Assembly (NCBI RefSeq): GCF_900101015.1
Contig: NZ_FNFZ01000001.1
Span: 137,412-201,411 of the forward strand
DNA from: Sarcina sp. DSM 11001
GTDB lineage: Bacteria; Bacillota; Clostridia; Lachnospirales; Lachnospiraceae
Length of the DNA stretch: 64,000 bases
Direction: 5' to 3'
Part shown: piece after piece, positions 13,543-46,933 of the stretch
Layout: each line of letters begins with the position of its first letter
Numbering within the stretch: the stretch's first letter is position 1
The notes under the pieces: model-generated
What the model saw: the letters and a program-made list of their open reading frames with translations, nothing else
The model's database searches: none
Told to the model about the DNA's origin: nothing
Made by a program: the position numbers and the translations under genes

Positions 13543-13565
13543 CTCACGTCTGTGCATGGCTGTGA

Positions 13566-13732
13566 CTGATTGGAGACGCAATTCGCCATGCCGACAGGTT
13601 CACAAACATTTCATGTTTGTTCACTGTCGCGGCATTCGCCGTATACAGACGTTTGATCATCCTTCCGCTGGTGTGCGAGCACCCCATCGTCAGTCTGATC
13701 AAACGTCTGTGCATGGCTCATTGCTACACGCA
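13566..13732 (-). repeat. Structured element, copy 1
   Basis: Read on the minus strand, this segment aligns with 46706-46868 through four blocks. These are TAGCAATGAGCCATGC, ATACGGCGAATGCCGC, CCTGTCGGCATGGCG and ATTGCG. Between the blocks, stems differ in sequence but stay paired. A 15-bp stem (ACAGACGTTTGATCA and its complement, plus 13694-13708 and 13644-13658) replaces a 10-bp stem in copy 2. ACAAACA/TGTTTGT replaces ACGGC/GCCGT. The copy lies between the terminators of two convergent genes, isolated from both. No ORF. Confidence 0.75.
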
Positions 13733-13766
13733 AAAACCGGGCTGCAGGGTATTCCCTGCAGCCCGG
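13732..13766 (-). terminator. Terminator of the acyl-CoA dehydrogenase gene
   Basis: A perfect 13-bp stem (CCGGGCTGCAGGG, plus 13737-13749, with 13754-13766) is followed on the minus strand by five T. Confidence 0.9.
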
Positions 13767-13807
13767 TCTTGTATTCGGGACTGTTGAAGTACAGTCGGTG
13801 GTAATGA

Positions 13808-45929: not shown

Positions 45930-45958
45930 TTGACAAATACCGGTTTGAACCCTATAAT
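45930..45958 (+). promoter_or_regulatory. Perfect consensus promoter driving a gene-free region
   Basis: TTGACA (45930-45935), exactly 17 nt, TATAAT (45953-45958), within an AT-rich upstream tract. It is the only full consensus match in the window. No coding gene lies downstream before the terminator at 46933. Confidence 0.85.
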
Positions 45959-46705
45959 TATCTCATAAAGTACTTCAAGAGAAGGTGACGAGAAGATCAC
46001 CGATCAAGCTCCGGATCAGAAGCAGATCCTACTTCAGACAGACTGGATAATATGAATGATCTCAAAGGATCATTCAAAAGGAAATTGTCTCAAAGGACAC
46101 TTTCGCAGGATGGCTGCCAGGATGACGTGAATCTCCGGTACCTCCCACAATATTCCAGGTTTTTGAAAGAAATCCTGCATCTGATGAAAGAGAAGAAAGG
46201 AAGGTACACGCCACCGGAACATTACAGTACAGCTTTTTAAAACAGTTACAATTGAATAGAGTCCGCAATTGAGTACGTAAAAGATAAGTGGTGAATCGCA
46301 GCGTCGGATATTTTGAAGGATTGCACGATTGATCATAAAGTACACCGGATGAATAAAAGCCCGACATATCCTGAATCGGAAACCGGAGAAGTGAAGGATG
46401 GGAAAATGAGTGGAACAGCTCATTTTCGGATCATCACACTGATCAGACAGTAGATGAAAGGGATGAGAGGCAAGTTTCAGAAGGATGATATTTTATGAAA
46501 GAGAATGCAGGTCTGGAGAAAGCATCAGAGAATGCAGCAGGATCTGACCGGACATCACAGTACAATCAGTACAAAGGTGAAGAGGAAAGAGAGCGGAGAG
46601 CCAGACAAAAAGGAGGAAAAGTCCATTGGATGGTGTTAGCTGAGGGAGAGCGTTCGTCGCAGTAAGCCCGTTGGAAAAGACGGCAGATGAATGCTCTTCC
46701 TTGTT

Positions 46706-46868
46706 GTTGCGCGCAAGCAATGGGCCATGCGCATCTGAAATAGCGGTAGCTTCCGTAAGCCAGCTCACAGGCAGGTGGAGATCTTTTCGGATGCATACGG
46801 CGAATGCCGCTACAGCGAACGGCGAAGCCGTGAGCCTGTCGGCATGGCGGATTGCGCCCCTGCAATCC
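46706..46868 (+). repeat. Structured element, copy 2
   Basis: This copy matches the element at 13566-13732 in inverted orientation. Paired parts are GCAAT-GGG-CCATGC (46717-46730) with GCATGG-CGG-ATTGC (46842-46855), and GCATCTGAAA (46731-46740) with TTTCGGATGC (46785-46794). CGGC-GAAT-GCCG is at 46798-46809, ACAG with CTGT around ACGGC-GAA-GCCGT (46820-46832), and GGATTGC/GCAATCC at 46849-46868. Two of these stems are rewritten but preserved in copy 1. Confidence 0.75.
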
Positions 46869-46894: not shown

Positions 46895-46933
46895 AACCGG
46901 CCGGGAAAGCACAATGCCTTCCCGGCCGGTTTT
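46895..46933. terminator. Bidirectional terminator
   Basis: AACCGGCCGGGAA (46895-46907) and TTCCCGGCCGGTT (46919-46931) form a perfect 13-bp stem with T runs on both strands. It ends the non-coding transcript and the minus-strand activase gene. Confidence 0.88.

Follow-up and report, generated by a model that had tools for sequence, protein, structure and literature searches.

The window, by which we mean the whole 64,000-nt stretch of DNA analysed, contains two copies of a folded element, and each copy lies behind a hairpin that is followed by T-rich sequence (Table 1). An earlier reading, made from the sequence alone, had reported both copies at these positions, with linkers in common and with stems that are unlike in sequence and still paired, and all of this was borne out. 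The linkers ATACGGCGAATGCCGC and CCTGTCGGCATGGCG occur in both copies; the stem GCATCTGAAA/TTTTCGGATGC, which includes one G.U pair, stands against ACAGACGTTTGATCA/TGATCAAACGTCTGT, and a second stem, ACGGC/GCCGT, stands against ACAAACAT/ATGTTTGT. The span originally given for copy 1 (46706-46868) comprises the element together with its T-tract and tail. The model R2, trained on 27 rows from which both window copies are absent, gave exactly two matches in the window at E values up to 10. Folding of copy 2 with its flanks was far better than that of shuffled sequences (z of -6.4, with 0 of 200 shuffles as good), and for copy 1 with its flanks, whose P2 is degenerate in the inner half, it was not (z of -0.9, with 39 of 200 as good). 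The terminator scan assigned the hairpin upstream of copy 2 to the plus strand; when read on the minus strand, the hairpin is followed by TTTTT.

Table 1. Features of the two element copies and of their surroundings in the window
Feature	Position	Strand	Remarks
Hairpin of 14 pairs after acyl-CoA dehydrogenase gene, directly before copy 2	13736-13767	-	T-run 13736-13732
Copy 2 of the element	13578-13732	-	R2 model 124.9 bits, E 1.6e-33
Copy 2 P1 5' strand, GCAATGAGCCATGC	13711-13724	-	Partner 13578-13591
Copy 2 P2 hairpin, 66 nt, variable arms	13645-13710	-	
Copy 2 P3, TACGGCGAATGCCG	13630-13643	-	
Copy 2 P4 hairpin	13593-13629	-	
Immediately downstream of copy 2: truncated repeat, GCCATGCACAGACG, of its P1/P2 5' arm	13547-13560	-	
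Promoter-like TTGACA-17-TATAAT of the long region, sigma-70-type, 12/12 positions	45930-45958	+	
Long conserved region preceding copy 1, no recognised family	45960-46707	+	Similar sequence in ten relatives
Conserved 3' hairpin of long region, then T-rich tract; copy 1 starts just after	46644-46700	+	
Copy 1, four-way junction, inner half of P2 degenerate	46708-46855	+	R2 model 88.7 bits, E 3.2e-23
Copy 1 P1 5' strand, GCAATGGGCCATGC	46717-46730	+	Partner 46842-46855; R2 alignment
Copy 1 P2 hairpin, 64 nt, variable arms	46731-46794	+	
Copy 1 P3, TACGGCGAATGCCG	46796-46809	+	
Copy 1 P4 hairpin	46810-46840	+	
Copy 1 P1 3' strand	46842-46855	+	R2 alignment
Terminator-like hairpin downstream of copy 1	46895-46931	+	Scan gives minus strand

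With the sequence-only reading came the proposal that a model be built and that the genome and its relatives be scanned with it. This was done, and many more copies were found. In the genome that holds the window, the P3 word ATACGGCGAATGCCGC occurs at 14 places with at most one mismatch, of which 13 fall within elements or within a partial tandem copy, and the remaining one (L013) seems to be a chance occurrence. The model R1 was built from 12 copies of this same genome, so that its scores there are high by construction, and it recovered 12 full copies below E 1e-30 together with seven weaker pieces. The element is therefore two-copy, as had been claimed, within the window but not genome-wide. 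In the genus, a threshold of E up to 0.01 gives between 1 and 24 matches per genome in 43 of 61 genomes, this one among them; completeness of at least 90% is reached by 25 genus genomes, and nine of these are without any match. The family was sampled with one genome per genus, our own genus excepted; 136 of 299 genomes match at E up to 1e-6, which corresponds to 135 of 298 sampled genera, and the copy numbers are lower bounds, 10 candidates having been scored per genome. A draw of 245 genomes from the class gave 12 matching genomes at E up to 1e-4, eight from the same family and four from other families (G419, G436, G537 and G557, the first at 2.6e-5 only), and the 233 class genomes without a match serve as a background check on the model. 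No match was obtained in viral contigs with one exact 22-mer, in plasmids by blastn with one copy as the query or in phages by blastn with another copy. The two window copies are members of a large dispersed family of folded elements of about 150 bases that is present in many gut bacteria.

Membership in a known Rfam family had been named as an outcome that would speak against the claim, and the copies searched never reached a gathering score in Rfam 15. Across the window the sole gathering-level match is the Clostridiales-1 RNA (RF01699; 5266-5446, 87.8 bits), which lies away from the element and was rejected as its relative, the sequence being unlike by eye. The copy 1 region, searched at E up to 5, gave seven matches, all far under gathering. 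For L095, L124 and L139, searched at E up to 1, the matches over the element were three microRNA-type hairpin models on L139, all sub-gathering, which match its perfect P2 (best E 1.6e-4); L313, L234, L241 and L263, searched at the gathering level, gave one tRNA and nothing else. A group II intron was also rejected, as the element is about 150 nt long and no group II Rfam match was present either in the window or at any of the seven element loci that were searched. In the open-licence papers retrieved for this element or for Lachnospiraceae repeats, the element is not described.

The consensus runs from a T-tract through TGCGCG and one or two further bases to AGCAATGAGCCATGC (the 5' strand of P1), P2, an A, TACGGCGAATGCCG (P3), P4 and GGCATGGCTCATTGC (the 3' strand of P1). 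It folds as a four-way junction of P1, a 65-nt P2 with arms that change from copy to copy, a near-invariant P3, and P4. Despite the turnover of its arms, P2 is 65 nt long in 79 of 90 genus copies; these were retained from 115 parsed and 96 unique copies after those without P4 or with odd length were dropped, and the set is enriched in many-copy genomes and in copies with the lead and P3 motifs that the parser needed. In 27 diverse genus copies 84.3% of cells were paired and double changes were found in 40 of 62 pairs, a level that 0 of 500 shuffles reached. In this set P1 has no double change and P3 is invariant, and the signal comes from P2 (29 of 30 pairs) and P4 (11 of 14). R2 was trained on 27 of 37 non-redundant copies. 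Family-wide, 34 matches outside the training set (32 loci, with one antisense match in L260 and one second match in L248) were 89.1% paired, with 60 of 62 pairs double-changed and 0 of 500 shuffles as good, figures that are somewhat favoured in that R2 itself served both to retrieve these matches and to fit them. In this set P1 and P4 covary too, and sliding the partner strand by 1-3 columns left pairing at only 35-43%. Among 79 genus copies, a copy's own P2 arms pair at 78%, compared with 54% when arms are swapped between copies.

The mismatches in these stems depend on the strand that is read. In P2 of the 79 genus copies there are 105 cases of tandem G.A/A.G and none of tandem T.C/C.T, and in the family-wide set G.U outnumbers A.C by 73 to 23 and G.A outnumbers T.C by 136 to 11. 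A mechanism acting on duplex DNA would be strand-neutral, whereas the observed mismatches are biased; therefore, it is the top strand that folds, as single-stranded RNA or DNA. Pairs of G and A are tolerated by RNA and by single-stranded DNA alike. The excess of G.U leans towards RNA, and the share of G.U among standard P2 pairs of the family-wide set, 37 of 749, is low for an RNA. Thus, covariation beyond the controls and strand-specific wobble pairs, the marks of a structured non-coding RNA, were both present.

P2 turnover was followed in 20 pairs of sites with common flanks, with a pair-by-pair comparison for 17; the site pairs are not independent of one another, and five of the 20, and several others, have common rows or weak flanks. 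Some pairs had few changes in P2, and these were mostly one-sided (5 one-sided and 0 double in both L012/L014 and L118/L147, 2 and 0 in L125/L167, 3 and 1 in L153/L169, and 7 and 1 in L165/L198). Others had many double changes within conserved surroundings, namely 9 of 24 P2 pairs in L136/L202 (flanks 93 and 95% identical, P4 95%), 10 in L129/L166 (flanks 90 and 93%, P4 92%) and 7 in L130/L164 (flanks 92 and 84%, P4 95%). At orthologous sites, the whole P2 hairpin thus appears often to be exchanged as a block. Such an exchange might be the work of gene conversion, or a new copy might insert and recombine with the old one. Because P2 often appears to be replaced in this manner, covariation between two copies is not mainly the product of stepwise compensation. 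The claim that the structure is selected is well supported by the covariation across the family and by the strand-specific mismatches, and the fold has been conserved for a long time. The paired change between two copies, on which that claim had been based, is nevertheless weaker evidence than it looks. An antisense or guide role for the P2 arm was not supported by the two arms tested. The copy 2 arm matched, besides itself, only two sites with three mismatches in 4.15 Mb, and the L139 arm matched its own two arms in G050 and nothing in G005 or G008. In these two cases, the P2 arms were not copied from other sequence of the genomes.

The copies prefer particular sites. Among 87 non-redundant copies, 50 lie directly after a same-strand hairpin and T-run, compared with 50 of 1,740 random upstream positions, a control that includes coding positions and, like the count itself, covers the same-strand orientation alone. 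A tRNA gene is present on the same strand in the 130 nt upstream of 10 of 122 copies (3 of 90 genus copies and 7 of 32 others). The 5' flank ends in T in 80 of 90 copies at one position, and there is no matching rule at the 3' side. At L116, L134, L143, L144 and L174 an upstream open frame runs into the first bases of the element. Scans of the flanking frames covered 57 of the 82 neighbours upstream and 57 of the 77 downstream, and the commonest Pfam family accounts for 3 of the 57 upstream and 2 of the 57 downstream. Regulation of a shared pathway is therefore not supported, the neighbouring genes being of many families.

The region of about 780 nt in front of copy 1 (45930-46707) is 73-82% identical in ten genomes of the genus and has no Rfam match. 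To judge from its sequence, the region resembles a non-coding RNA of large size, absent from the library, with the hairpin and T-rich tract at its end. Short conserved patches of it also match other genomes, including repeat-free ones. Copy 1 had been described as the end of a long RNA. It does lie directly after a conserved, transcript-like region, but the element does not belong to that RNA, because the 3' hairpin of the region is kept in nine relatives with no element match behind it, and in eight of the nine the same downstream gene was also recognised. The matches of the ten relatives stop at query positions 721-793, where the element begins at 779, and a model scan of their loci (L311-L320) gave no element match. 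TGCGC follows the T-tract in at least five of the nine relatives (L313, L314, L315, L317 and L318), and L315 retains a stub of about 18 nt, TGTGCGCGTAAGCAATGA. Some "empty" sites may therefore be losses that left a stub rather than sites that were never occupied.

Many similar copies at unrelated sites, together with variable presence at orthologous ones, are the pattern of a MITE-type repeat, and the family displays both. At L015-L018 there is no element match behind the gene that lies upstream of copy 2. In G025, L186 and L187 have in common a block of about 245 nt (92% identity over 248 columns) that starts at the T-tracts of two different terminators, a duplication of the element inside a single genome. 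Modules are mixed as well: a tailed subfamily, which ends in a hairpin and ATTT, carries near-identical P2 at unrelated sites in four species (G008, G011, G027 and G052) with different P4 modules. The within-genome test of P2 covered those 79 copies in which its length is 65. Second copies, in tandem or partial, are often present. Copies that are 3'-partial, with the 5' end kept after a terminator-like T-tract, occur in this genome (L272-L275) and in others, and 5'-truncated remnants of the tailed form exist. The two strands of P1 make up an inverted repeat. The flanks yielded no clean target-site duplication; those of the tailed subfamily are loosely alike (TGnAATTT) by eye, which is unreliable copy by copy, and the 3' ends are ragged, so that the outer boundary is uncertain. 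No longer, gene-bearing version was present among the GCAATGAGCCATGC matches listed for 13 genomes or in the 20 regions read.

We consider that these are probably short non-autonomous mobile repeats, of about 150 nt and up to about 245 nt with tails, whose top strand forms a four-way junction and which are inserted by an enzyme after terminators and tRNA ends. A trans-acting enzyme would recognise the folded single strand through the conserved P1, P3 and P2 apex and would insert new copies behind terminators and the 3' ends of tRNA genes, where, we propose, copies do little harm. Recombination of a resident copy with a newcomer or with any other copy would swap P2, and the fold may be retained as the recognition substrate and perhaps also as part of read-through transcripts. 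Several copies are found at orthologous sites across species, which is more than a pure parasite needs.

This retention in several species, including the L136/L202 and L129/L166 pairs, is consistent with an alternative that we regard as possible but doubtful, namely that the element is a resident cis-acting RNA. It would be a 3'-end element that polymerase transcribes after passing leaky terminators, with the long P2 duplex as a processing site, a backup stop or a protection of transcripts, and its spread would be incidental. The top strand tolerates G.U far more than A.C, as an RNA would, and the location of 50 of 87 copies after a terminator-like hairpin (same-strand orientation alone covered) suits such a role. 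P2 is also terminator-like family-wide in having an A-rich 5' arm and a T-rich 3' arm; however, a T-tract in P2 is absent from most genus copies (L004 is an exception). Two further observations argue against a cis-acting RNA: the flanking genes have no common function, and the presence of the element varies between sites and among the nearly complete genomes of the genus, nine of which lack it.

A further reading, which we hold to be rather unlikely, is that the family constitutes a widespread class of mobile structured RNA of gut Clostridia, in which the mobility machinery would read the RNA fold and not the sequence. P2 would be a swappable 65-nt duplex cassette, fixed in length and free to be replaced, and the element would be in effect a bacterial version of a SINE, directed to terminators and to the ends of tRNA genes.

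The strand-specific fold, the T at the 5' flank of 80 of 90 copies, and the hairpin and ATTT that end the tailed subfamily are features of a further alternative, an IS200/IS605- or REP-type mini-element of single-stranded DNA, whose mobiliser would be a Y1 (HUH) transposase with its cut after TTT. A Y1 search that gave 50 matches included weaker matches in frames of 221-363 aa, called RAYT-like from their length alone, in G000, G005, G011, G025, G052 and G053; such matches were absent from all five element-free genomes of that search. However, no element was present at the 27 Y1 loci searched for a mobilising enzyme (0 of 11 with long Y1 frames and 0 of 16 others, with flanks of about 1.3-2 kb), and G008, G027 and G037 contain no long Y1 frame despite 24, 17 and 11 element matches, respectively. 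GTAG, the tag of one REP class, stands directly before P1 in 15 of 90 copies but is missing in the other 75. We therefore judge this alternative unlikely, and we rejected membership in the REP/RAYT class, since neither GTAG nor CGTC, found in the leader of 3 of 90 copies, is family-wide and no element lies at those Y1 loci.

Quite unlikely, too, is a SINE-like retroelement, whose RNA would be copied by a reverse transcriptase primed at terminator T-tracts, much as terminators are used by group IIC introns. This would account for copies with one end at T-tracts and the other end truncated, and for the RNA-like mismatch pattern, but the truncation is at the 3' end of the folding strand, where target-primed copying would truncate the 5' end, and no group II intron family matched on the element in the window or at the loci searched. 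Quasi-palindrome correction, by which arms copied from each other in replication would yield covariation without selection, is very improbable even though P2 arms range from perfect to strongly mismatched and the outer arms of L165 are matched while its orthologue L198, with an identical outer 3' arm, has a 5' arm that is mismatched, since arm copying is strand-neutral and the asymmetry in both G.A over T.C (136 to 11) and G.U over A.C (73 to 23) disfavours it in its pure form, and since P1 and P4 also covary.

Several known systems come close to the element. ERIC and BOX are structured intergenic repeats of 100-200 bp in other bacterial groups, BOX being modular, and, as commonly described, they resemble the present element in size and in intergenic structure. 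Group IIC introns, which are ribozymes with a reverse transcriptase, insert behind transcription terminators; the element is likewise found behind terminators but is far shorter. The bcr1-bcr18 repeats of the Bacillus cereus group are described as dispersed, mostly chromosomal sequences of about 100-400 bp, of which bcr1-3 are MITE-like and two, bcr10 and bcr18, conserve a secondary structure; transcripts of the two strains studied contained 40-51% of the copies, and the first bcr element is described as restricted to the Bacillus cereus group, with a TTTAT motif (PMC6542083, PMC3446304). Set beside these descriptions, the present family is alike in size and behaviour and unlike in its spread over 135 of 298 sampled genera, its four-way junction, its paired changing arms and its terminator preference. 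REP sequences, as outlined in one report, measure 20-40 bp and carry a GTAG or CGTC tag at one end (PMC3733652). The dispersed single-strand hairpins, mosaics and arrays of REP and BIME sequences as outlined there (PMC3733652) resemble the present elements, but the latter form a 150-nt four-way junction, have GTAG in 15 of 90 copies and are absent near the Y1 loci searched. The bcr and REP repeats are thus the published kinds nearest to the present family. As its breadth, four-way junction, variable arm and terminator preference set it apart from the bcr repeats, we call it a dispersed structured repeat outside any named family.

A folded element that occurs in nearly half of the sampled genera (135 of 298) of a major family of gut bacteria is thus without an entry in Rfam 15. 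It combines features that are usually separate, dispersed mobile repeats on the one hand and RNA-grade covariation with strand-specific non-standard pairs on the other, and its arm of fixed length and changing sequence poses a concrete puzzle. Copies at terminators, and some after tRNA genes, may reshape 3' ends and read-through. The family is worth recognising in annotation, and wherever covariation between two copies is taken as proof of a regulatory RNA.

Several minor observations were made in the course of this work. L012 and L014 (G000:C21 and G000:C69) are near-identical copies of one element-bearing locus in the assembly of the window's own genome and represent either a duplication or a strain mixture. 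The 3' tail module CCGACCGAATCCACAACAGTTCGAAAAACTG and its variants also occur alone and in tandem, without a four-way junction (L203, L206 and L225). A small extra hairpin module, CATCTCCTTCGGAG, is present at the base of P4 in L007, L074, L154, L174, L175, L191 and L192, which are from different species. Finally, in three genomes (L270, L276 and L277) a short hairpin resembling P1 is conserved by itself (GCAATGAGCCATGC, about 11 nt, GCATGGCCCATAGTATGC), as if it were a kept remnant of the element.
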